A stretch of DNA of 21,022 bases from a virus, in IMG/VR virus record IMGVR_UViG_3300025652_000689, positions 1 to 21,022 of that record, one strand, 5' to 3'. Shown piece after piece: positions 853 through 16,204 of this stretch. The notes beneath the pieces were generated by a model. That model did not search any database. It was not told the DNA's origin and was given only the letters and a program-made list of their open reading frames with translations. How positions within the stretch are numbered: the stretch's first letter is position 1; each line of letters opens with the position of its first letter. The position numbers and the translations under genes are program-made.

Positions 853-1758
853 ATGGCCTCACCATATCAAATAGCAGGAACAAGAGCAAGCCTTGCAGAT
901 TTATTACAACAAAGTAATCTTCAACAACAACAATCTCAAAGAGCTGGAAGCAAACAAATGGGAGAAATGCAAGAAAAGTTTGAAGATGAACTTGAAAAGT
1001 TACAATCTGATGCGAGAAAAAGAAGTAAAAAAAATAAAGGTTTAGGTAGTTTATTAAATATAGCTGCATTAGGATTGGGGCCTTTAGGTGCAGGTATAGC
1101 AAAAGGATTATCAAGTGGTCTTCAATTACAAGACCAAAAAACAGGTGCTAAAATGCTTCTTAATAAAGATATGCAAAAACGATATGGTAATACTTTTTTA
1201 AGAGGTGGAATGAAAAACTTTACTGAAATGGCAAAAGATGCGCAAGTTTCAAGTGGTGATGTTTTAAGAGGTGCTTTTGGTGGTGGATTATCAGGTTTTG
1301 CAATGAGCAAAATGCTTGGTGGTAGTAAAGAAGACGGTGGATTATTTAAACAAATGGGTGAAGCAAAAGATGCTCAAAAATTAATGCCTCAAGTTGAAAA
1401 GGGATATGAAGAATATTTACAAGATGCTTTTAAAGGTTCTGAAGAACAATATAGTGAATATTTATCTGAATTAGGAGATGTTTCAGTTCCAGGACAAAAA
1501 ACACTTGAAGATTTTAAATCAGGAGTTATGAATAAACAACAATTTGCTGAAACTTCTGTTAATGATATTTTTAAAAAATTTAAAGTTGGCGGTTCTGATT
1601 CAACTATGAGTAATGTATTATCTTCTAAGAATCCAGCATTACAACAATTATTAGAATCATTTAAAGACTTTTCTGGAGGTAAATTAAAAGGTGGAATGGA
1701 AGAAATGCAAAGCGCAATAATGCTTCCTATGTTATTGCAACAATTATTAGGAGAATAA
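853..1758 (+). CDS. Putative virion protein, Gln-rich N-terminus
   Basis: This 301-residue protein starts at ATG 853 behind AAAGGA at 841. The N-terminal 60 residues are rich in Gln, Lys and Glu and predict as helix, including a QQQQ run. Residues 63-90 form a glycine/alanine/leucine-rich hydrophobic stretch (GLGSLLNIAALGLGPLGAGI) that could insert in or pass a membrane. The C-terminus is a helical MLPMLLQQLLGE segment. It begins 67 bases after the fibre-like gene and is followed one base later by the next virion-like gene. I do not recognise a named family. An internal or ejected virion protein is inferred from composition and position beside the giant protein. Confidence 0.72.
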   Translation: MASPYQIAGTRASLADLLQQSNLQQQQSQRAGSKQMGEMQEKFEDELEKLQSDARKRSKKNKGLGSLLNIAALGLGPLGAGIAKGLSSGLQLQDQKTGAKMLLNKDMQKRYGNTFLRGGMKNFTEMAKDAQVSSGDVLRGAFGGGLSGFAMSKMLGGSKEDGGLFKQMGEAKDAQKLMPQVEKGYEEYLQDAFKGSEEQYSEYLSELGDVSVPGQKTLEDFKSGVMNKQQFAETSVNDIFKKFKVGGSDSTMSNVLSSKNPALQQLLESFKDFSGGKLKGGMEEMQSAIMLPMLLQQLLGE

Positions 1759-1759
1759 A

Positions 1760-2224
1760 ATGTTTCAACAAAGTATATTAGATTCATTACAAGGTATGGG
1801 ATTTGGGCCAATGGGCTTTAATCAATTGTCAAATTTATCTCCAGACCAAATTTCGTCTGTATTTCAACAAGAATACGGATTAACCGACCAAGACATACCT
1901 GCATCCATGTTTCAAGGAATATCTCCAGAAATGCTACAAGGAGCAAGCTATTCTACATATGCACCGCAAATACAAGCACAAGGACAATCAATGCTTCCTG
2001 GTTTATATAAAAATCTTGGTGGACAAGCAGCACAACAAGCAAAAGGCGGTTTTGCAGGCAGTTCAGCGTTTGGTAAACAACAAGCAGGTGCAAGAGATGT
2101 TTACGGTAAATCAATGACTGATGTATTAACTAATGTTAGAGGCCAACAATCACAAGGTATTGGAATGATTTCTGATTTAATTAATCAATGGCACAGTACA
2201 GCGCAACGTATTAAAGGATATTAA
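1760..2224 (+). CDS. Putative small virion protein, Gly/Gln-rich
   Basis: This 154-residue protein starts at ATG 1760, one base after the previous stop, with AGGAGAATAAA reaching back into the end of the upstream gene, so translation is probably coupled. The first half is rich in Q, M and S. Residues 89-118 carry a small-residue segment (AKGGFAGSSAFGKQQAG) followed by a helix with RDVYGKS. From memory, similar GFAGS-type helices occur in small internal or connector-proximal proteins of podovirus-like phages; that comparison was not checked. There is no catalytic motif and no signal peptide. Position between two other virion-like genes supports a structural or internal-virion role. Confidence 0.7.
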   Translation: MFQQSILDSLQGMGFGPMGFNQLSNLSPDQISSVFQQEYGLTDQDIPASMFQGISPEMLQGASYSTYAPQIQAQGQSMLPGLYKNLGGQAAQQAKGGFAGSSAFGKQQAGARDVYGKSMTDVLTNVRGQQSQGIGMISDLINQWHSTAQRIKGY

Positions 2225-2227
2225 TCT

Positions 2228-3802
2228 ATGGCAATAAAAGGATTTGAGAAAAAAGACCCTATGGCTGGGTTAAATCAACTGATGCAAATGATGAATCAAA
2301 TGAATCAAATGCAAGATAGAAAAGCTCGAAGACATATGGGTATGGAAGATGAGCTTGGAAAAGGTTTAGAAAGTATATATAATAATACACAATTAGAAGC
2401 TAGACAAAATCAATTTAATTCATATTATCAAAATAATAAAGAAAATATGGATGAAGATACAATAGCTAGATTTGATTTACTTAATCAAAAAATTTCCAAT
2501 CAAGCTCAATCAAACAAAGATTATCAATTTGGAATGGAAAAAATGAAAAACATAGGCAGACAAGTTGAAGATTCTTTAGTTGCTTATTCTGACATACAGG
2601 GAATGTCTGTTGAAGATTTAAATAGTACATATTTAAAATTACTTCCAGATTCTAACCAAAATATAAATATAGAAGCAAAAAGAGAAGAATTAAGACAAGC
2701 TGCAATGGGAGATGTACAAACTTTAGTTGACAGTTATACTCAAGATAGCAGTCAATTTAGAGCAAGTCATGGAGAAAGATTAGGTAGAGCTGGTTTTAGA
2801 CAAGATGCTGCATATATACAAAATTTAAATGAAATGTTTGCATTTGGTATTGTTCAGGCTAAAGATGATTATGTATTTGATTCTGCAGAAGCTGAAGCAA
2901 TGCAAATGGGTATTGAGCTTGGCTCTTATCAGCCTATAGAAGATTATAGAAAACAAGAGTCAAATAGAAATAGAATATTAACAGCTACACAAGATAAAGA
3001 ACTTAAAGAAAATTACGAAACTATTAAAGGATACCAAACAATAATAGATGATGCTAATAAATTTCAAAGATTAGTACAATCAGATACTAAAGTAGATAGA
3101 GCTTTAGCAGCACAAATGGCAAATGAGGTTTGGTATACGGACGGAAATGATGAAGAAGTTATGTATGATTCAATTGTAGGTGAAAATGAATTTTTTAATG
3201 TATTGGGTAATATGGATGCAGAACAAGCAAAGTATATACAAAATGTTAAAAATATAAATAATTCTTACAATAAAAGAGAAGGCATAAGTTGGTTGCAAGA
3301 TAATAATACAGATAGCAGACTTAAATTTAAATTTGAAGATATTGAAACACCACCACCTCCTCCAGAAAGTGAAAATAAAGTTAAAACAGAAGAAGCTAAA
3401 GTTAAAACAGAAAAAGCTCCTGCTATTATATCAGAAAATGATTCAGAATTTTTTACAGAAAAAGGATGGACACCTGTAGCAGGTAGAAGCGGAAAAGGTT
3501 GGGCAGCAGAAACAACGGTTAAAAAAGAAAAATTAGATGAATTTATGTCACTTGCATTTAACCCTGATAATTTTGAAAATGGAAAAATTAAAGAAAATAG
3601 CGAAATATATCAATTAATACAAAGAGCTAAAAAAGGTGGCAGTAGAAGAATGAAAAAAGTTGAACAACAATTAAAAAGATATGCTCAAGGTATTAAAAAT
3701 TATAAAAATCTTGAAAAAGAAGGATTTGACCCTCCTGCATGGGCAAATAGACTTGTTGATGAAGTAAAATTTTTACTGACTACAAAAAAAAGACGTAAAT
3801 AA
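2228..3802 (+). CDS. Putative internal virion protein, helical
   Basis: This 524-residue protein starts at ATG 2228 behind AAAGGA near 2214. It is mostly charged helix. The N-terminal 30 residues are Met/Gln-rich with a NQMNQMQ pattern. Around residues 375-379 a run of five prolines leads into a linker with two near-copies of KVKTE, and a basic C-terminal part ends KKRRK. Proline hinge and basic tail suggest two separable parts, the second possibly touching DNA or membrane. I recognise no enzyme motif. It sits directly upstream of the giant protein with three bases between, so the pair may act together as ejected proteins, as T7 gp15 and gp16 do; this is analogy from gene order, not homology I can show. 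Confidence 0.72.
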   Translation: MAIKGFEKKDPMAGLNQLMQMMNQMNQMQDRKARRHMGMEDELGKGLESIYNNTQLEARQNQFNSYYQNNKENMDEDTIARFDLLNQKISNQAQSNKDYQFGMEKMKNIGRQVEDSLVAYSDIQGMSVEDLNSTYLKLLPDSNQNINIEAKREELRQAAMGDVQTLVDSYTQDSSQFRASHGERLGRAGFRQDAAYIQNLNEMFAFGIVQAKDDYVFDSAEAEAMQMGIELGSYQPIEDYRKQESNRNRILTATQDKELKENYETIKGYQTIIDDANKFQRLVQSDTKVDRALAAQMANEVWYTDGNDEEVMYDSIVGENEFFNVLGNMDAEQAKYIQNVKNINNSYNKREGISWLQDNNTDSRLKFKFEDIETPPPPPESENKVKTEEAKVKTEKAPAIISENDSEFFTEKGWTPVAGRSGKGWAAETTVKKEKLDEFMSLAFNPDNFENGKIKENSEIYQLIQRAKKGGSRRMKKVEQQLKRYAQGIKNYKNLEKEGFDPPAWANRLVDEVKFLLTTKKRRK

Positions 3803-3805
3803 TAA

Positions 3806-6800
3806 ATGACAGTATACGAATATTTAGATAAAAAAAGAGCAGAGAACCCTCAATATAGACAGTTTAGTGATATAGGTTTATATAAAAAACTTCAAGGAGA
3901 AGACCCAAATATTCCTAAATGGAAATCGTCAACTTCGACAGGTGTAAAAACAAATCAGCAAGACCCTGGTTTTATGAATAGTTTATTTGATTGGACTGAC
4001 TATGGAATTAATGAAACATCAGCTAAGTTTGCTAAATCTGCATATAATAACTCAATTACAGGCCTTGCTTATCAACTACATAATGGTGAAGCAAGATTTG
4101 ATTTAGATGATTATGACCCTGGAATAGCTGAGGATATATTTAGCGCTGTATTATCTTTTGCTATGCCTCTTGATATGGCATCAATGTTTGTTGGTGGTGC
4201 TGCAGGTAAAACATTAACTACATTAGGCAGCGCAGGATTAAAAGAAGGTATGGTTAAATCACTTACTGGGAAAGCTGCATTTAAAAAAACATTAGGTGAA
4301 AAAGCTCTTAAGTCCACAACAAAAAAAGAATTAGCAAAAGCTGGTATTAAAAAAACTCCATTACAAAGAAGAAAAGAACTTGCAGAAGACTATGTTAACA
4401 ATTTAATTAAAGACCGTGGACTTTCACCATTATATACAAAACCATCACAATCATATATTGCTGGAGCACAAATGCAAGGTGCTACTCTTGCTGTATTTGA
4501 AGGAGTCAGAGGTGGATTTCAAGCTGCTGTAGATGGTGAAAATATATGGAAAGGTGTTGGTAAAGGTATAGCGCATGGAGGTATGATGGGCGCAGCATCT
4601 GGAGCACTTGGTGCAAGTTTAAATTTTAAACACGGAGAACTTCTTAAAAGATATGCAGATGAAGATTTTCTTAATTACACTCAAAAAGCTAAAAAACTAG
4701 CTACAGGTACAGTAGGGCAAATTGTAGCAGAAACTACTGTATTTACAGCACCAGAGCTTAAAAATGTAATAGGTGATGAAAATTATGGAATGAGAGAGTT
4801 AATGCGTTCATGGGCTACTAATGCTGGTATGATGGGTGTATTAAAGGCTAAAGGTAAACTTTGGAATAAAGGTAAAGATGAAATAGGTAAATGGGCAGAC
4901 AGAGAAGGTTTAAAAGAATATCTTGCAGCACAAGATTTAGTTAAATCTACAAAAGCAGTTAAACAAAATATACAACAAAATATGCCTGAAAACACACCAG
5001 CTGAAAAAGCAGCTAAAAAAGCAGCATTAGAACAATTATCAAACTTTAGAAATAGACAAATAAGAAACGCTGAATTAACTATAAAAGAATATGAATCATG
5101 GGAAGCTGATTATAAAAAAGCTACTGATATTGTTGAGGGAGTTGCAAGTGGTAAAATAAAAAATGTAGATGCTGACCAAGTATTAGATGTTATGAGACAA
5201 ATACACGCTGTACGTGGAGCAATGATAAAAAACAAAAACTTAGGAATCCCTAAGAATTTATCTAAAGAGCAAAGGAAGTTAGCAAAAGCTGAAAGAGAAG
5301 CTGAAATAAATCGTTTAGAAAAATTAGAAAAACAATGGGAAACAGAAATAGAAGGCCCTTTAAGAAACATAGAATCTGGGATTGACCCTAACATAGCTAC
5401 ACAAAAAACAATTCGTGTTGGATATACAAAATCAATAAAAAAAGCATTAAAAGAAAATCCTGAAGCTGTTAAAGAGTTAAGAGAAGGATTAGAAAATGTT
5501 GTTGACGCTAAAGGTAATATTACAAATGTAAAAGAATTTAATAAATTAGCAGAACAAGCTGAGATTAATAGAAAATCATATGAAGATGTGTATGGAAAAA
5601 AACCTAAAAAAATTATACAAGCAGACCCAGATGTATCTAAATCTAAACAAGTTTTTGACACAGAAGTAAAAAACCAAGAAGCTATATCTGACAAAGCTAA
5701 AAAAATTAAAAAATTAACAACGTCTGAAAAAAAAGGAGAAGAACCTTTAAATAAAAAAGATAAACAAATTCAAGAAACTGAATATACAAACCCAGAAGGA
5801 GAGACTACACAAGGTCAAATTGATGCTTATAAAAAAAGTAAACAAGTTTTAAGTTATTTTGCTAGGACATTTTTTTCAAATAAACAATTAATAGCAAAAA
5901 AAGGAGACTCAACTAAATTAGGACATGCAGATAAACTTGCTAAATATTTAGCCAAAGAAGGTAAATCATTTTTTGAAATGACTGATGCTGATTTTGCTGA
6001 CTTTATTAAAAAAAATCCATCTATAAGTAAAGACTCAGCTTCTTCTATTATTAGAGGTTTAGCTGACATAGCTTCGTTAAACAGAAATCAGGCTGCAAAA
6101 TTATTTAATGAAAAATTTAAATTGTTATTTAAACCTGAAATAGGTAAATCTGTTTATAGATTTGTTGGAGAGATAAGAAAAAAAGCAAAAGTTGAAGGTG
6201 CTCAGATTGAAGGCGATGCAGCAATTTATAGTAGTGATGGAAAAATAGAAATTTCTACAAAAACAGGGTTTATAGAAAAATACACATCAAGAGATTTAAT
6301 TAAATCCATAAGAAGTCTTGCAGCAAAAACAGTTAGAAAATTAACAAGGCCTGGACATGAGGAATTTTTATTTAAAGTAAAAGATGGTGGTGAGCATGTT
6401 GTTATACAAAATTATCAATTAAGTGGAATAATTAAAGAAATATTTGGAGTAAAAAAATCAAAGGCTGGAGAAGCCAGGCTTTTTAGAAAATCAATTAATC
6501 AATGGGCTGTTGAAAAATATAAAGAGGGAGCTGTTGAAATTGATATAGTATATGAAAAAATAACAGGTCATAAGCCTTCAGGTGCTCAAAAGGTTGCTAC
6601 AAGTTATCAAAAAGCTATAAGTCAAGGCGAATTACCTGCTAGAGTTAATAAAATATTAAAAGAATATATAAAAGACATTAAAAGTGGAAAAGTTAATTAT
6701 GGTAGAGGAAAAGAAGGTTATACTACTTTAGAATTAAGAAAAGGACTTAAAAACTTAGACAAATTATTATTAACAAAAAAAGATAATGTTTTTGAAATAA

Positions 6801-9800
6801 TTAACAAAGGTAAAAAAGAAAAAGTAACTATAGATAATGCAACATTAGAAACTATGGTTAATTACCTTCTTAAAACTGGCCCACGTTTAAATGAAGTAAG
6901 TATAGATAGTCAAACATTTAATATGCTGACCAAGTATCAATTAAATTCTAAAATTAAAGCAGGTCAAAGTATTGTTGGTGCTGAAAAACTTGCTCAACAA
7001 GTTGCTTGGGTTAAAAAGAAATTTCCAAAATTATCAGTTCAGATTGAAAAAACATTAGGTAAAGTTAATGGTCAGTATGTACTAGGTAAAATACATAACC
7101 ATTTAATTAAAATAGCTTCAGGTAGAGCAAAAATTGATACACTTCCTCATGAGGTATCTCACCATGTTGTAGATATATTAAAAGAGTTTGGTGACCCTAT
7201 TAGTAAAAAAATTGTTAAAGATGGTATTAGAATGTTCAGAAAAAAGAAAATGACCGAAGCACAAGCAGAGGAAGCTTTTGTTGAAGCATTGGGTAAATAT
7301 ACTGCAAAAGAATTACCTAAAGGTATGATAGGCAGAATGAAATCTTGGACTAAAAGAGCTGTTAGTTATATGAGACAATATTTTGGTATGAGAAATCAAA
7401 ACGATGTTAATGGTATGAAACAAGATATTGTTAGAATTATTGGCGGCAAAGTAATTAGCGGTAAAATACCAACAGATTATTTAAGTCCTAGTAACACATT
7501 GAAAGTTAAATATCAAACGCAAAGTACTTCTCAAGGTAAAAAAGTAATTAAAGAATTACAAAAACAAACTGAAGATGCTAGACAAGAAGCTATAGATACA
7601 TATGGTGCTAAAGAAAGTATGCTTAAATCTTTAGAAGCTGATGTATTAGGCCCAAATAGAAATATTAAAAGCAAAGACATTACTGGTGGAGAGCTTGAAA
7701 GAATACAGCAAAATTACAGAGATATGTTTAAGTCTGTTGTGGAAGGTAAATCTGCTGAATATGCTAAAAATCACGCTAAAGTAAAAGGAATTGAAGCTGA
7801 GTATAATATTTCTGAATCACAAAGAGATGCGTATTTTGAAAGATTTGATACAAAGTTTGAAAAAGCATCACAAGATATGATTAATACATATAAATCTTAC
7901 ATAGCACTTGGAGATAAAATTAAACCATTGCAAAACACAAATGCAGATGCGTTTAAAGCAATATCTGATACAAACATAAATAGTACTTTACCTATATGGA
8001 AAAGAGCTTTTTTTAAATCTGCTGATTATATAAGAAGATTTAGTCCTAAAATTGCAAGAAATTTAGAGTTGCATGATTTTACTAGAAGTTTCGAAATGAA
8101 AGGGCCTGGTGAAAGAGGTGTTGAAAGAATTAAATCTATTGTAAAAAGCAAAAGAGTTCAAGATAATTATATGCATTTAATTGACCCTGTTTTAGCTAAA
8201 AATGCAATAAATCAATTAAAAAAACTATCAACAGACAAGACACTAAGTGAATCACGTAGAAATAGGTTTAAAAAAGAATACGTAGAAGCTTTATCAATAA
8301 GAGAAAAATTCACAAAAGGTGAATATGTTGAAGCTGGAAAACAATGGAAAGAAATATCTGATTTTTATTGGAACAATTTATTATTGGCAATAAAAAAGAA
8401 CACTCCATCTAATACAGAATTTGCACAAATAAGAGAAGGTTTAAATGAAAGATATATACAAGAATATTTTGTAAGAAGGCCTACTAAAGAAGTTGTTCAG
8501 CATATACATGAAAATAGCAATGTTATACAAAAAATGGCTGAAAGAGAAATTAAAAAATTATCTTTAGAGGATTTAAAAAGAATTAAAAAACAAGATAAAA
8601 CGCCTGAAGATGTAGTTGCTGCAGAAATTATGCAAATGATTAAATTTGGCCCTTTAGTAGCAAAACCGTCATTTTTAAAAGAAAGAGGAGTTACGCTTCC
8701 TGAATATATGGAGATACCAACAAAAGATGGTGGTAAAAAATTAGTTAAATCATACGAATCAAATATTGATGCAACAATGTCAACATATGTCAATGGAATG
8801 TCTAAGTTTATAGCTACTGTAAAACATTTTCCAGAGTTTACTGAATTAGGTGGTAAATTTGCATTAAAAGGAAGTACTGGGAAAGAAATAGTAGAACAAT
8901 TACAAACAAAAATGCTTGGTGGTAATAAATCTCCTGATGCTGTTTATGCTTTTGAAACAGTTAAAAAACAATTAGGTCTTGACCAGAATATGATTGATGT
9001 TTTAAATCAACCAGTAGCAGAATATATTGGAAAAATAACTAATTGGTCTGCTGTTCTTGGTTTGTCATCTCCACTTGCAGGTTTAAAAAATGTTATGATT
9101 CAGCTACCAAGGAGTATTGCTGTTTATGGAGCAAAGAATACATACAAAGGTTTTGCAAAAGCAATGAAAACAGAGCTTGGCAGAAACCCTAATAACAAAG
9201 AATGGTTAAAAGCTGTAGAAAGAGGTGAAACTGGATACGGTCAAAAAGAATTATTATTTGGAGCTGATTCAAAAATCAAATGGTGGTTTGACAATGTTAA
9301 CCTTATGACACAAACTGAAAACTTAAATAGAATTATGACTGCTGAAGCTGGAAGATTGCATTTTGCAGAGCTTGTAAGTTCATATAAAAAACAAGGTTCT
9401 GGATTTTTTCCTAAATCTAAAAAAGCTGAAATAGATAGAATGTTTACAGATATATTTAGATTAAGCGACAAGCAAATGAAACATTTAAGAGAAACAAAAG
9501 ATTTGCATAATTCTGTTGAATATGAAAATATATTAAATTACGTAGGTTTTACTGCTCACAAAGCTAGTGCTGGAGCAACTGGAGTTTCTGATTTGCCTTT
9601 ATGGATGTCTAATAAATACATGAAACCATTAACATTATTCCAAAGAATGGCTTATTCTGTTACTATTGATTCTTATAAAAATTATGTTAAACCATTAAAA
9701 AATGGAAATGTTGCACCTCTTGTAAAAGCAACTCTCGGTCATATGGCTACAGGAGCAGCTTTATATGGATTATATGATAAACTTATGGGTCAACAAATAC

Positions 9801-10558
9801 CTGTAGAAGAAAACGATGCATTAAGCAAAGCTGTATCTTATATATGGAGAGGTGAAATGCTCGGTGTATTTGGTGAGGCTATATCTCCTTACACTAAAAG
9901 AGGAAACATTAATCCTTTAATGGAGCCTGTTATAGTTAGAAATATATCATCTGCAGGTCAAGAAATTATTAACATGATTAGCAACGGAAAACCTGTTGAC
10001 ATGGCTTTACAAGATTTTGCAAGACAAACAATTGTGATTGGAGCACAAGCAGAAAAAATATGGAACAAATCAACAAATCCATATGCTGTTAATGTTAAAA
10101 GAATTGCAACACTTGAAAGACAATGGAGAAAAGAAATGGGAAGTGGCTATGAGCAAACATCAGGTGGAGTTTTAAAAGAAAGACATTACGCATATAGAAG
10201 ATTAAAAAATGCCTTACTATTAAACAACTCTGATTCTGATATAGCAAAAGCATATTATGTTGCTTACAACACATTATTAGATGAAAGAACTAATGGTGGA
10301 TTTGTTAATATGTCAGAAAATAAAAAATATGCAAGAAAAACAATTATGAGAATGATTGAAAAAATGAACCCTCTTGACATATCTAAAGAAACAAAAGGTA
10401 GAGTTACATCAAGAAGAAAAGAATTTTTAAATTATTTATCTTCAGAAAATCAAAAACTTGCTCTTAAATTAGAAAAAGAATTTCAATATAAAGTACGTAA
10501 ATTTAAATCTATAACAAAAAGAGGAACATATAAAAGATTATATGCTAATCATATTTAA
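3806..10558 (+). CDS. Giant virion/ejection-type protein with HExxH protease motif
   Basis: This single uninterrupted frame encodes 2250 residues, starts at ATG 3806 with only a weak Shine-Dalgarno site, and ends the + strand block. Residues about 108-150 and 215-275 are glycine-rich and hydrophobic. At 1115-1119 is HEVSH, followed 36-41 residues later by an EEAFVEALGKY helix that could supply a third zinc ligand, a gluzincin-like layout. Residues 700-940 resemble a degraded tyrosine recombinase: a SAM-like helical part, then K819, R894, GH 921-922 and Y934. A box-I-like LLKTGPRLNEV lies at 1021-1031. The rest is charged helix, with a conserved-looking segment (SPLAGLKNVMIQLPRS) near 1755. 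Size and place after the fibre and internal-type genes fit a large polyvalent protein carried in the virion and injected with the DNA. T7 gp16, a comparable ejected protein, is much shorter at about 1320 residues. The zinc motif is firm as sequence; function is inferred. Confidence 0.85.
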   Translation: MTVYEYLDKKRAENPQYRQFSDIGLYKKLQGEDPNIPKWKSSTSTGVKTNQQDPGFMNSLFDWTDYGINETSAKFAKSAYNNSITGLAYQLHNGEARFDLDDYDPGIAEDIFSAVLSFAMPLDMASMFVGGAAGKTLTTLGSAGLKEGMVKSLTGKAAFKKTLGEKALKSTTKKELAKAGIKKTPLQRRKELAEDYVNNLIKDRGLSPLYTKPSQSYIAGAQMQGATLAVFEGVRGGFQAAVDGENIWKGVGKGIAHGGMMGAASGALGASLNFKHGELLKRYADEDFLNYTQKAKKLATGTVGQIVAETTVFTAPELKNVIGDENYGMRELMRSWATNAGMMGVLKAKGKLWNKGKDEIGKWADREGLKEYLAAQDLVKSTKAVKQNIQQNMPENTPAEKAAKKAALEQLSNFRNRQIRNAELTIKEYESWEADYKKATDIVEGVASGKIKNVDADQVLDVMRQIHAVRGAMIKNKNLGIPKNLSKEQRKLAKAEREAEINRLEKLEKQWETEIEGPLRNIESGIDPNIATQKTIRVGYTKSIKKALKENPEAVKELREGLENVVDAKGNITNVKEFNKLAEQAEINRKSYEDVYGKKPKKIIQADPDVSKSKQVFDTEVKNQEAISDKAKKIKKLTTSEKKGEEPLNKKDKQIQETEYTNPEGETTQGQIDAYKKSKQVLSYFARTFFSNKQLIAKKGDSTKLGHADKLAKYLAKEGKSFFEMTDADFADFIKKNPSISKDSASSIIRGLADIASLNRNQAAKLFNEKFKLLFKPEIGKSVYRFVGEIRKKAKVEGAQIEGDAAIYSSDGKIEISTKTGFIEKYTSRDLIKSIRSLAAKTVRKLTRPGHEEFLFKVKDGGEHVVIQNYQLSGIIKEIFGVKKSKAGEARLFRKSINQWAVEKYKEGAVEIDIVYEKITGHKPSGAQKVATSYQKAISQGELPARVNKILKEYIKDIKSGKVNYGRGKEGYTTLELRKGLKNLDKLLLTKKDNVFEIINKGKKEKVTIDNATLETMVNYLLKTGPRLNEVSIDSQTFNMLTKYQLNSKIKAGQSIVGAEKLAQQVAWVKKKFPKLSVQIEKTLGKVNGQYVLGKIHNHLIKIASGRAKIDTLPHEVSHHVVDILKEFGDPISKKIVKDGIRMFRKKKMTEAQAEEAFVEALGKYTAKELPKGMIGRMKSWTKRAVSYMRQYFGMRNQNDVNGMKQDIVRIIGGKVISGKIPTDYLSPSNTLKVKYQTQSTSQGKKVIKELQKQTEDARQEAIDTYGAKESMLKSLEADVLGPNRNIKSKDITGGELERIQQNYRDMFKSVVEGKSAEYAKNHAKVKGIEAEYNISESQRDAYFERFDTKFEKASQDMINTYKSYIALGDKIKPLQNTNADAFKAISDTNINSTLPIWKRAFFKSADYIRRFSPKIARNLELHDFTRSFEMKGPGERGVERIKSIVKSKRVQDNYMHLIDPVLAKNAINQLKKLSTDKTLSESRRNRFKKEYVEALSIREKFTKGEYVEAGKQWKEISDFYWNNLLLAIKKNTPSNTEFAQIREGLNERYIQEYFVRRPTKEVVQHIHENSNVIQKMAEREIKKLSLEDLKRIKKQDKTPEDVVAAEIMQMIKFGPLVAKPSFLKERGVTLPEYMEIPTKDGGKKLVKSYESNIDATMSTYVNGMSKFIATVKHFPEFTELGGKFALKGSTGKEIVEQLQTKMLGGNKSPDAVYAFETVKKQLGLDQNMIDVLNQPVAEYIGKITNWSAVLGLSSPLAGLKNVMIQLPRSIAVYGAKNTYKGFAKAMKTELGRNPNNKEWLKAVERGETGYGQKELLFGADSKIKWWFDNVNLMTQTENLNRIMTAEAGRLHFAELVSSYKKQGSGFFPKSKKAEIDRMFTDIFRLSDKQMKHLRETKDLHNSVEYENILNYVGFTAHKASAGATGVSDLPLWMSNKYMKPLTLFQRMAYSVTIDSYKNYVKPLKNGNVAPLVKATLGHMATGAALYGLYDKLMGQQIPVEENDALSKAVSYIWRGEMLGVFGEAISPYTKRGNINPLMEPVIVRNISSAGQEIINMISNGKPVDMALQDFARQTIVIGAQAEKIWNKSTNPYAVNVKRIATLERQWRKEMGSGYEQTSGGVLKERHYAYRRLKNALLLNNSDSDIAKAYYVAYNTLLDERTNGGFVNMSENKKYARKTIMRMIEKMNPLDISKETKGRVTSRRKEFLNYLSSENQKLALKLEKEFQYKVRKFKSITKRGTYKRLYANHI
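10555..10558. other. Interlocking convergent stop codons (TTAA)
   Basis: The giant + strand gene stops with TAA at 10556-10558 and the facing - strand gene stops with TAA at 10557-10555. The four bases TTAA carry both stops, so the two operons meet with no intergenic DNA. Confidence 0.9.
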
Positions 10559-11037
10559 AATAATTCCTTAATTGGTAATAAAACCATTTGACTTGCATTA
10601 TTATCACCACCCATAACCATTTTTAAATTACCTTCTTTTTGAAGGTTTTTTATTTTATCCTTAAGTTGGTCTACCTTAAATATAAATCCGCCCTCTATGT
10701 GCCCATTATAGGCCAATAAATGTATCCAGGCGGTTGATTCTGTGGTAGATAAACCAGATGGCTTGCCACTGCATCTAATTTCAATGGCAATATTACCAGT
10801 ATTTTTCCAAATGTCTCTTTCTGTTTTTACCTCTACTTTACTGTTACCTTCAAATAATTCCTCTACAAACTCTTCACCCATTTTACCAAATTTTAGGTCA
10901 AGGTCAAACCCTTTGCAATATCCCTCTGTTAATGGCATCCACTCATCCCCTTTCATTATCATGGCTTCTCCGCCAGATAGTTTATATATATCCATCATTT
11001 TAATTGTCAAGTTCGTACTGTCCTTTAAACCACCCAT
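10555..11037 (-). CDS. PD-(D/E)XK nuclease-like protein
   Basis: The 160-residue product starts at ATG 11037 with GTGGAG two bases upstream and overlaps the preceding gene by 38 bases. Residues 54-59 (GEEFVE) and 69-71 (EVK) are spaced like the first acid and the ExK of PD-(D/E)XK nucleases. They are followed by TERDIWKNTGNIAIEI and a GKPSG segment, a pattern I associate with phage nuclease-fold proteins and resolvase or restriction-like enzymes. The expected central Asp is not clearly assignable, so catalysis is uncertain. It is the last gene of the - strand replication operon, behind the RuvC-like resolvase, which fits a DNA-processing job. Its coding sequence also holds the other strand's terminator. 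An internal ATG at residue 14 has a poorer ribosome site. Confidence 0.72.
   Translation of the reverse strand: MGGLKDSTNLTIKMMDIYKLSGGEAMIMKGDEWMPLTEGYCKGFDLDLKFGKMGEEFVEELFEGNSKVEVKTERDIWKNTGNIAIEIRCSGKPSGLSTTESTAWIHLLAYNGHIEGGFIFKVDQLKDKIKNLQKEGNLKMVMGGDNNASQMVLLPIKELF
10630..10651 (+). terminator. Rho-independent-like terminator of the virion operon
   Basis: The + strand reads ACCTTC, a TTTTT loop, GAAGGT, then a T-run continuing as TTTTTATTTT. The stem is six perfect base pairs, and the T-run runs from 10646 to 10651. It lies 72 bases after the giant gene's stop and inside the coding sequence of the facing nuclease-like gene, where it encodes part of its NLQKEGNLK segment. On the - strand the structure is preceded by A's rather than followed by T's, so termination should act on + strand transcripts only. 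Confidence 0.7.
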
Positions 11038-11164
11038 TTCTCCACTCTTTTAATATTTGTGATTTGTTTGTTATTATGTTTGTTTTTGCTTTTTTCTTGT
11101 ATTTAACTCTGCCCTTACTGCTCATAGGAACAAAAGTGCATTTTTTTCTGTAATCATAACTCAT
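11000..11164 (-). CDS. Small basic protein of unknown function
   Basis: I start this 54-residue gene at ATG 11164 rather than at an in-frame ATG at 11185, because AGAGGAG lies seven bases before 11164 and that start overlaps the stop of the upstream resolvase gene by 11 bases, a usual coupling. The product is Lys/Arg-rich in its first half (KGRVKYKKKAKTN) and ends with a WRNGWFKGQYELDN helix. No family is recognised. The basic charge and the location between two DNA enzymes suggest nucleic acid or partner binding, which is inference only. Confidence 0.6.
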   Translation of the reverse strand: MSYDYRKKCTFVPMSSKGRVKYKKKAKTNIITNKSQILKEWRNGWFKGQYELDN

Positions 11165-11642
11165 TAAAATACTCCTCTTTTGCATACTTAACTATCAGAA
11201 TTGCATCTGATGTTTTAAGTGTTATTTTTTTAAGCTCTGGATAACATTCCTTAGCTTTATCTTTTAACCATCTTTTTCTTATTACGCTTTTTAAAGCTTT
11301 TGGACAACCTATCCATCTTATCCACTCGGCAGGAATTGCAGTATTCATTTTAACTTCATGTGATGCTGCTATACCAAGCCATTGTCCATAGTTTGTGCCA
11401 TATGAAAATGCGGCTCTTACTGCATTGGTTGGTCTGGCCCATACTCTTTCCATGACAAGTTTAACATTATCTGAAGGTGTATTACCTATAATAACCTCAA
11501 ATAATAGTGCCATATCTTCGCTTGAATCAGGACATTTATATGCTTTTATTTCACCCTCTTCATCTATGCAAGCAATGCCTCCAGATTTACCTGGGTCTAT
11601 ACCTACATATTTATATTTAACTTTGGAACGGTAGTTCGTCAT
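11154..11642 (-). CDS. RuvC-like Holliday junction resolvase
   Basis: The 162-residue protein begins with an RNase-H-fold signature: VGIDPGKSGG with Asp16 in the first strand. Glu65 follows in VMERVWARP, and Asp146 is in TSDAILIVKYA near the C-terminus. This acid-acid-acid order and the length match the RuvC family, which cuts four-way junctions using two metal ions. The segment PAEWIRWIG resembles the variable DNA-facing part of phage members. The start at ATG 11642 has GGGGAG nine bases upstream and overlaps the helicase gene by 26 bases. In a phage it would trim recombination or replication branches before packaging, working after the exonuclease and annealing protein of the same operon. 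Confidence 0.88.
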   Translation of the reverse strand: MTNYRSKVKYKYVGIDPGKSGGIACIDEEGEIKAYKCPDSSEDMALLFEVIIGNTPSDNVKLVMERVWARPTNAVRAAFSYGTNYGQWLGIAASHEVKMNTAIPAEWIRWIGCPKALKSVIRKRWLKDKAKECYPELKKITLKTSDAILIVKYAKEEYFNEL

Positions 11643-14826: not shown

Positions 14827-15390
14827 TTATTTTCCTTTCCCTTTTATCATGTTTTGTACTTTTTCTACACATGCTTCGTAGTTATGTGCATGAATCGACA
14901 TTTCGTTTACTTTAACTTTTAGATTATCTACAATATCCTTACCAAGAGGGTCTGCTAATTTATATAAATCCTTAGCTTCCTTATCTGATAAAGCATCTGG
15001 CTCTGGCAAATCTTCACCTGCAAAGATATATAATCCTAGTCCATGCAATGCTATTGCTTTTGCCAATGCTCTTTGTAGACTTGTATTAATCTGAAAAGCA
15101 TTTGGTTTTTCTATTGCTTGATTTCGATTATCAAGTACTGGATGTATTTGTGATAGTGAAACACCATCAACTTCTACCCATACATCAACAAAATAACCGC
15201 AATCTGTTTTAAAGAATGGAGAACCATCCTCTGCCTTCGTTACACCCCATCTTGCATTTGGACAAGCGCGTTTAAGCTCTTGCACTGCATATGCCCAAGA
15301 CAAGTAATTGAATCTACCTTTCTTTTGTGTATATTCGCTTACATCTGTCTTGAAGAGTTTCATGAATGTGCTTTGTTTTGTATTACTCAT
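14827..15390 (-). CDS. DUF1071/Sak3-like single-strand annealing protein
   Basis: I start at ATG 15390, which has AAAGGAG seven bases upstream. A longer in-frame ATG lies inside the exonuclease gene and has no support. The 187-residue product has the hallmark RFNYLSWAYAVQELKRACP near residues 26-44, then DCGYFVDVWVEVDGVS and a SLQRALAKAIALHGLGLYIFAGEDLP segment, as in DUF1071 proteins. That family is grouped with Rad52-like phage recombinases (Sak3). It would anneal complementary single strands during phage recombination. Its neighbours are a Cas4/RecB-type exonuclease upstream and an SSB-like protein downstream, the expected partners. Confidence 0.88.
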   Translation of the reverse strand: MSNTKQSTFMKLFKTDVSEYTQKKGRFNYLSWAYAVQELKRACPNARWGVTKAEDGSPFFKTDCGYFVDVWVEVDGVSLSQIHPVLDNRNQAIEKPNAFQINTSLQRALAKAIALHGLGLYIFAGEDLPEPDALSDKEAKDLYKLADPLGKDIVDNLKVKVNEMSIHAHNYEACVEKVQNMIKGKGK

Positions 15391-15400
15391 ATTCACTCCT

Positions 15401-16204
15401 TTACGTTGGTGGGTTACAATGTTCTTTAAATTGACAATAATTACATTGCCATTTTTGAACTGGAGAAACTCCAACTCTGAACTGTGGTAACCCTTGTTTA
15501 TGTTCATCGTTTATATTCTTCCAAAAGAGATATGCTCTTGATATGTAAGTAAGTGGTACTTCTACGCACCTCATCTTAGAATCATCTTTATTGTAGTAAT
15601 AAAGAAACATACCATCTAATTGTCCGAATTGTTGTTTAAGCGCATAACCATATGTGCCTAATTGTAGTTCATAGTGGATACTTGGATTTAAATTCTTTTT
15701 CCTACCGAACTTTAATTTCCAAGACCAGGCCCCACAAGTTTTTATATCATACAAAAAAACACGTTTACCATCATCTGTGTGTTTTGCAACTATATCATAA
15801 AAACCTCTGACATTTAATTCATCAATCCTCACTTCACCTTCAACTAAAAATTCAATACCTTTTTCTTTATTATTAATTTCTTTTTTAAGTTGTGTATTAT
15901 CTATAGATATATCTCTATTATTATCTCTATGAAGTGCGCGTGTGTGCGTAAGAGACTTCTGAACATCATCGTGAATCAAATTTCCAAGTTGTAATAACCT
16001 TTTTGTTCTTTCATCAAAAACACCCGTAGGTTTTATTTTCATGACTGATTCAAAATACAATTTTCTTGAACAAGAACCTGCTCCAGAGGCATGATACCAG
16101 GACTCGTTACCCTCATACCTCTCTTTTCTGTTTTTCTCTTGTAATTCATCAAGATACGAATTGTATATTCCTTCGATGTCGGTGGGACTTTTTACTCCAA
16201 GCAT
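15401..16204 (-). CDS. Cas4/RecB-like PD-(D/E)XK exonuclease with Fe-S cysteines
   Basis: The 267-residue protein shows the full Cas4-type set. Cys45 is in GAGSCSRKLYF, and Cys254, Cys257 and Cys263 are in WQCNYCQFKEHC, suited to a 4Fe-4S cluster. His78 is in LGNLIHD, Asp137 in GFYDIV, Asp153 and Lys155 in LYDIKT, and the QLGTY motif (Gln181, Tyr185) is typical of RecB-family nucleases. Such enzymes resect DNA ends to give single strands. It lies ten bases upstream of the annealing protein gene, forming an exonuclease/SSAP pair. There is no cas1 or cas2 and no repeat array nearby, so CRISPR adaptation is not indicated. ATG 16204 overlaps the previous stop as TAATG. Confidence 0.9.
   Translation of the reverse strand: MLGVKSPTDIEGIYNSYLDELQEKNRKERYEGNESWYHASGAGSCSRKLYFESVMKIKPTGVFDERTKRLLQLGNLIHDDVQKSLTHTRALHRDNNRDISIDNTQLKKEINNKEKGIEFLVEGEVRIDELNVRGFYDIVAKHTDDGKRVFLYDIKTCGAWSWKLKFGRKKNLNPSIHYELQLGTYGYALKQQFGQLDGMFLYYYNKDDSKMRCVEVPLTYISRAYLFWKNINDEHKQGLPQFRVGVSPVQKWQCNYCQFKEHCNPPT

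Follow-up and report, generated by a model that had tools for sequence, protein, structure and literature searches.

A giant protein closing a phage structural gene cluster combines a predicted zincin metallopeptidase with a tyrosine-recombinase-like region

The window, that is, the whole stretch of DNA analysed in this study, is a fragment of an uncultured virus whose source record comprises 21,022 bases. It opens (1-784, + strand, frame 3) with the C-terminal part of a fibre-like protein that contains at least nine 51-base (17-residue) repeats in register, of the form NTAKTGITTxQxNAI; homologous repeats are carried by L002 and L001. Open reading frames of 301, 154 and 524 aa follow with gaps of 1-4 bases and run directly into the giant gene. 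The neighbours and the 2250-residue length of the giant protein are as the preliminary description gave them. The features discussed below are as follows.

853..1758, + strand: 301-aa protein, placed in the same structural/ejection gene cluster by its tight spacing
1760..2224, + strand: 154-aa protein, occupying the place of N4 gp52 in the gene order
2228..3802, + strand: 524-aa protein, occupying the place of N4 gp51 in the gene order
3806..10558, + strand: giant polyvalent/ejection-type protein (open reading frame with ATG start, 2250 aa)
3806..5785, + strand: N-terminal region, residues 1-660 (hydropathy scan, alignment of relatives)
5828..6625, + strand: tyrosine-recombinase-like region, residues 675-940 (Pfam matches in relatives, hhalign)
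6707..6910, + strand: segment with an ArgI-like box, residues 968-1035 (subgroup alignment; model 1 pLDDT 87-94)
6941..7489, + strand: zincin metallopeptidase domain, residues 1046-1228 (alignment of 24 relatives, AlphaFold2 model of L047, Foldseek)
7148..7162, + strand: HEVSH, residues 1115-1119, predicted to supply two ligand histidines and the catalytic glutamate (H, E and H invariant in 25 sequences)
7271..7273, + strand: E1156, proposed third zinc ligand (invariant in 25 sequences)
7493..10555, + strand: C-terminal region, residues 1230-2250 (alignment)

The genes downstream of the giant gene lie on the opposite strand. The nearest of them encodes a 160-aa protein (10555-11037, - strand), which overlaps the 3' end of the giant gene by 4 bases and matches phrog_13596, a family of unknown function (2.7e-28). 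Open reading frames similar in size to that of the 301-aa protein occupy the matching place in L002, L007, L037 and L040.

Relatives of the giant protein were collected by pattern scans of IMG/VR, which yielded 24 proteins (23 distinct, as L052 and L053 look identical), all from uncultured-phage contigs, with lengths of 2123-2446 aa where complete and overall identities of 19-70%. No relative was found by whole-protein tblastn against 50,697 phage records or in GTDB genomes, the C-terminal block gave nothing beyond E 0.7 matches to Bordetella phage structural proteins among named phage records, and PDB sequence searches with four profiles returned chance matches only. In the N-terminal region, the hydropathy scan revealed a single strongly hydrophobic stretch (residues 111-129) along with Gly-rich segments, and the block YL..R..NP....S...LY..L is kept among relatives; residues 1-660 are possibly a membrane/ejection part. 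The C-terminal region ranks with the family's best conserved stretches (for example LGLSSP..G.KN, NVNLM..TEN.NRI and PLTLFQRMA) and matched nothing in Pfam, PHROG or NCBIfam.

Concerning the middle of the protein, the preliminary description had proposed a gluzincin ligand layout formed by HEVSH and a downstream helix within a giant polyvalent-type protein. HEVSH, at residues 1115-1119, is indeed the sole HExxH of the giant protein, against 0.023 expected by chance from composition, and EEAFVEALGKY at residues 1155-1165 places E1155, E1156 and E1160 at 36, 37 and 41 residues past H1119. In the alignment of 25 proteins, H1115, E1116, H1119 and E1156 are invariant without exception, and the complete set of invariant zincin-domain residues is D1111, P1114, H1115, E1116, H1119, V1121, L1125, F1144, E1156 and G1163. 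The other two glutamates that had been suggested as ligands vary: E1155 is replaced by Arg in L016, and the position of E1160 is occupied by E, Q, D or L. Since neither is required, E1156 is the candidate for the third ligand.

The conservation of HExxH does not stem from how the relatives were selected, because 12 of them (L011-L016, L030-L035) were found through C-terminal patterns. Ten others (L029, L047-L061) were found with a pattern containing HE, which leaves their second His and E1156, but not their HE, as independent evidence. The distance between H1119 and E1156 ranges among relatives from about 29 to more than 60 residues, with both ends conserved. In the loop between the HExxH and Glu helices, L002 and L013 have the same insert of about 27 residues; the two relatives (L002:12157-12786 and L013:7769-8398) are otherwise diverged, with 34-43 identical bases of 60, and rise to 59 of 60 exactly over this loop, forming a sharp recombination patch.

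An AlphaFold2 prediction for window residues 660-1230 with 9 sequences (model 1) gave an unusable zincin part, whose first half had pLDDT values of about 35-59. AlphaFold2 was also run on the corresponding domain of L047, which is 46% identical to that of the window, using an alignment of 24 sequences. The resulting model, of moderate confidence (pLDDT 68, pTM 0.61; block means of 76-92 for helices and 59-71 for strands), shows the order N-terminal helix, three strands, HExxH helix, helix and Glu-bearing helix, which is the minimal zincin topology, with HExxH on helix 65-81 and the Glu ligand candidate on helix 100-111. A Foldseek search of BFVD with this model returned viral zincins as best matches (E 6.9e-4 and 9.1e-4, prob 1.00); the other viral matches included proteins named IrrE-like, M48, SprT-like, 'Lethal factor', 'Metalloprotease' and 'Large polyvalent protein associated'. 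In the PDB, the top match was the zincin PPEP-1 (prob 0.54, E 0.42), followed by M1 peptidases, none of them significant alone. At the sequence level, no Pfam zincin reached its cut-off (SprT-like, 17.0 vs 25.6 bits), and SprT-like (PF10263) aligned weakly with the HExxH helix in 11 of 16 members, with a best E of 0.0017; unlike in SprT-like proteins, the third ligand proposed here is a Glu on a later helix.

Because ligand conservation, model topology and Foldseek matches point the same way when taken together, residues 1046-1228 are assigned as a gluzincin-like metallopeptidase of the phage polyvalent-protein kind with predicted activity, in agreement with the earlier proposal. The core described for polyvalent-protein metallopeptidases (MPTases) by Iyer et al. 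2017 consists of a helix, three strands, the HEXXH helix and a later Glu helix (PMC5512222). The window domain resembles these MPTases in lying inside a giant multidomain protein, in having the same core and in carrying a variable insert between conserved helices; H1099 before HExxH, which is mostly conserved, and D1123 just after it recall one phage clade (PMC5512222). It differs from them in having no sequence-profile match above the cut-off to a named Pfam family and in its fusion to a tyrosine recombinase.

An alternative reading of HEVSHHVVDILKEFGD, in which it is no protease motif but what is left of box II (pattern HxLRHTFATHLLEAG) in a second, decayed tyrosine recombinase, was also considered, given the similar letters, the recombinase domain just before it and an ArgI-like box 88 residues upstream. 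When the zincin-domain profile was compared with integrases, however, it scored 17.0 (shuffled 12.1 +/- 2.1, maximum 18.9) and aligned elsewhere in the domain, the position of the essential Arg is Ser or Ala throughout while H, E, H and the distant Glu are invariant, and the model and Foldseek point to a zincin. This reading is thus extremely improbable, and on profile, conservation and zincin model a degenerate box II can be set aside for practical purposes.

The preliminary description was right about the zincin, but it overlooked the adjoining tyrosine recombinase. Of the two domains this is the less usual one, and it alters the probable role of the protein. In the relatives, Phage_integrase (PF00589) matched L050 at 1.1e-13, above the Pfam cut-off, L032 at 1.2e-5 and L034 at 6e-4, and Phage_int_SAM or SAM-like N-domains matched with a best value of 2.6e-6; the window's own region had no Pfam match. 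No other PF00589 match was seen elsewhere in 20 virus records, several of them fragments. Profile-profile comparison was used because a local HMM of 16 integrases was not sensitive enough for most members. In hhalign comparisons with 16 known integrases, the score was 56.8 for 11 relatives of canonical order (shuffled 9.4 +/- 1.3) and 33.2 for the window's subgroup (shuffled 11.6 +/- 1.5, maximum 16.5). The latter alignment places K819, R891xxR894, G921-H922 and Y934 on the integrase Lys, HxxR, GH and Tyr, and in the window these residues (K819, RxxR 891-894, GH 921-922, Y934) follow a SAM-like core-binding part. A weak XerA match (prob 0.44, E 0.22) appeared among noise in the Foldseek search with the model of residues 660-1230. 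Based on the evidence from sequence profiles, residues from about 675 to 940 are a tyrosine-recombinase (phage integrase) domain. It shares with phage integrases (PF00589) the SAM-like core-binding part, K, RxxR/HxxR, GH and Tyr, and is unlike them in being part of a giant structural-cluster protein and, in the window's subgroup, in having the ArgI-like box after the tyrosine.

This box, TGPRLNE at residues 1024-1030 (T-x-P-R-x-x-E), lies C-terminal to the putative catalytic Y934, and its T1024, R1027 and E1030 are invariant in 11 of 11 members of the subgroup, in which the usual ArgI position is empty. Conversely, relatives with a canonical ArgI box have none after the tyrosine, with the possible exception of L016, which may have both. 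As the two box positions are complementary between subgroups, the recombinase of the window's subgroup may be circularly permuted. The permutation is put forward as a hypothesis, since the comparison with integrase profiles left the post-tyrosine ArgI segment unaligned to the integrase start. A limited open-access literature search recognised no circularly permuted tyrosine recombinase and no virion-carried integrase.

Within the subgroup, R894, Y934 and R1027 are invariant, the Lys register is shifted by one in 3 of 11 members, and the HisIII position is H, D or R. With no Pfam match of its own and an ArgI box out of order, the window's recombinase may be catalytically dead. One might go further and regard both folds as inactive structural or DNA-binding modules of an ejection apparatus, a reading to which the displaced ArgI box and the variable HisIII lend themselves and which has a parallel in N4, where the HExxH subdomain C1 of the virion RNA polymerase (vRNAP) is part of a C-terminal domain that has been reported to autoinhibit the polymerase (PMC12633501). 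Against this, the canonical full recombinase set and order are retained in several relatives, and in the zincin all four residues of the active site stay unchanged even where overall identity falls to 19-30%, which is difficult to account for unless the domain is catalytic or, at a minimum, binds zinc. We consider loss of activity in both modules distinctly unlikely.

In longer relatives, one strand carries the terminase, P22-type portal, SU10-type capsid and tail-type genes, then genes like those for the 301-, 154- and 524-aa proteins, with the giant gene last; it converges on replication genes including, in the window, a RuvC-type resolvase at 11154-11642. This order recalls N4, in which gp52 (150 aa), gp51 (644 aa) and gp50 (vRNAP, 3500 aa) correspond to 154, 524 and 2250 aa here. 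Both the Schitoviridae vRNAP and the window protein end the structural cluster behind genes for proteins of about 150 and about 520-690 aa, and a gene for a RuvC-type resolvase likewise lies convergent behind the vRNAP gene in two N4-like phages. N4 gp50 consists of a membrane part, an RNA polymerase, the HExxH subdomain C1 and a helical C2 (PMC12633501); the window protein thus has the domain plan of gp50 with a tyrosine recombinase replacing the RNA polymerase, and no T7-like RNA polymerase domain was matched in it in Pfam, PHROGs or NCBIfam. By hhalign, the N- and C-terminus of the window protein and the 301-, 154- and 524-aa proteins did not rise above shuffles against N4 gp50, gp54, gp52 and gp51, and the zincin scored 23.4 against N4-like MPTases (shuffled 10.7 +/- 2.0) over just 21 columns around HExxH. 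The likeness to N4 is accordingly one of organisation, in gene order and domain plan, without demonstrable sequence homology. Since it is organisational, packaging and ejection are read as probable: the terms virion-type and injected, as used in the preliminary description, find their support in gene position and analogy with N4, T7 and P1, and both enzymes may enter the bacterium along with the phage DNA.

The window protein is also like T7 gp16 in that, of the ejection-type proteins, it is the largest and is encoded where the structural cluster ends, and unlike it in carrying a protease and a recombinase in place of a transglycosylase. The zincin could be supposed to open the cell envelope, as a peptidoglycan or periplasmic peptidase replacing the gp16 transglycosylase in DNA entry; this would suit the ejection-type gene position, T7 gp16 has a wall-cutting domain (PMC8954989), and no lysozyme or transglycosylase domain was found in the giant protein. 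The zincin, however, lies mid-protein, directly behind a DNA enzyme that must reach DNA, and the proteins named in its Foldseek matches are IrrE-like, SprT-like or polyvalent ones, which are not known wall peptidases, making an envelope function improbable.

From the two domains, their order, their conservation and the gene order, all of which come from the sequences, we infer packaging, ejection, proteolysis, self-cleavage and recombination in the following scheme. The plan would be a membrane/ejection N-terminus, a tyrosine-recombinase-like DNA enzyme, a zincin protease and a long helical C-terminus. The giant protein would be produced with the late genes, packaged and brought into the host with the DNA. 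Zinc would be held by H1115, H1119 and E1156, with water activated by E1116, and the zincin would cleave the giant chain itself, in the head or after entry. Cleavage would free or activate the adjoining recombinase, which could then act on the incoming phage DNA by circularising, resolving or integrating it. We give about an even chance to this reading as a whole, namely an ejected internal virion protein of a short-tailed-type phage whose zincin cuts its own chain and thereby releases or activates a recombinase for incoming DNA.

Going by precedent, a zincin of this sort could have any of three roles, namely processing before packaging as in P1 DdrB, processing after entry, and attack on host proteins (PMC5512222). 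The preference for processing that frees the recombinase has two grounds: recombinase and protease are direct neighbours, and no other part of the middle region is as well conserved as the protease. P1 DdrB is a precedent for self-processing (PMC5512222), whereas the self-cleavage reading is weakened by the closest analogue, N4 vRNAP, which is packaged uncut (PMC5512222). The zincin could instead be injected as an effector to cleave a host protein, such as a defence factor or an RNA-polymerase factor, with the giant protein as its carrier. Such use has been proposed for polyvalent proteins (PMC5512222) and would fit a zincin in an ejection-type context, but the protease is one domain of a far larger conserved protein and stands beside another enzyme, and the precedent with data, P1 DdrB, concerns processing of the phage's own protein. 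A host effector is thus unlikely, and judging from precedent, self-processing is at least as likely as host-protein cleavage.

A more far-reaching form of the self-processing scheme is that the virion carries, within an ejected giant protein in the slot of the N4 RNA polymerase, its integrase, circularly permuted in the window's subgroup, which the zincin cuts free after entry and which acts on the DNA at once, without gene expression; taken with all its parts, this is unlikely. A recombinase delivered with the DNA would allow the genome to be circularised or integrated before transcription.

The zincin alone is a known kind of domain, whereas a recombinase combined with a zincin in the vRNAP slot is an architecture of which a limited open-access literature search found no description. 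Unrelated enzymatic domains, zincin and recombinase, are joined here in one giant phage-encoded protein of 2250 aa, and a tyrosine-recombinase fusion partner is absent from the main text of PMC5512222, in which the words integrase and recombinase do not occur. A protease beside a DNA recombinase in the vRNAP slot suggests a modular chassis for giant proteins of the ejected type, composed of a membrane part, an exchangeable nucleic-acid enzyme, a protease and a helical part. With this family, the idea that a protease frees a passenger enzyme becomes directly testable.

Several further observations were made in the same records. In L040 (4853-10687) and L038 (1300-7221), a second giant open reading frame of 1945-1974 aa lies in the structural cluster; that of L040 had no PHROG match. 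In L033 (6275-7915), residues about 626-693 of the giant protein gave a weak Pfam match to the Eco29kI restriction endonuclease (2.7e-4, below the cut-off), just upstream of the recombinase region of L033. In the window, a Sak-type single-strand annealing protein is encoded beside a PD-(D/E)XK (Cas4-like) exonuclease (14827-16204, - strand), and this pair, with the DnaB-type helicase and RuvC-type resolvase beyond it, forms a compact recombination-replication module.
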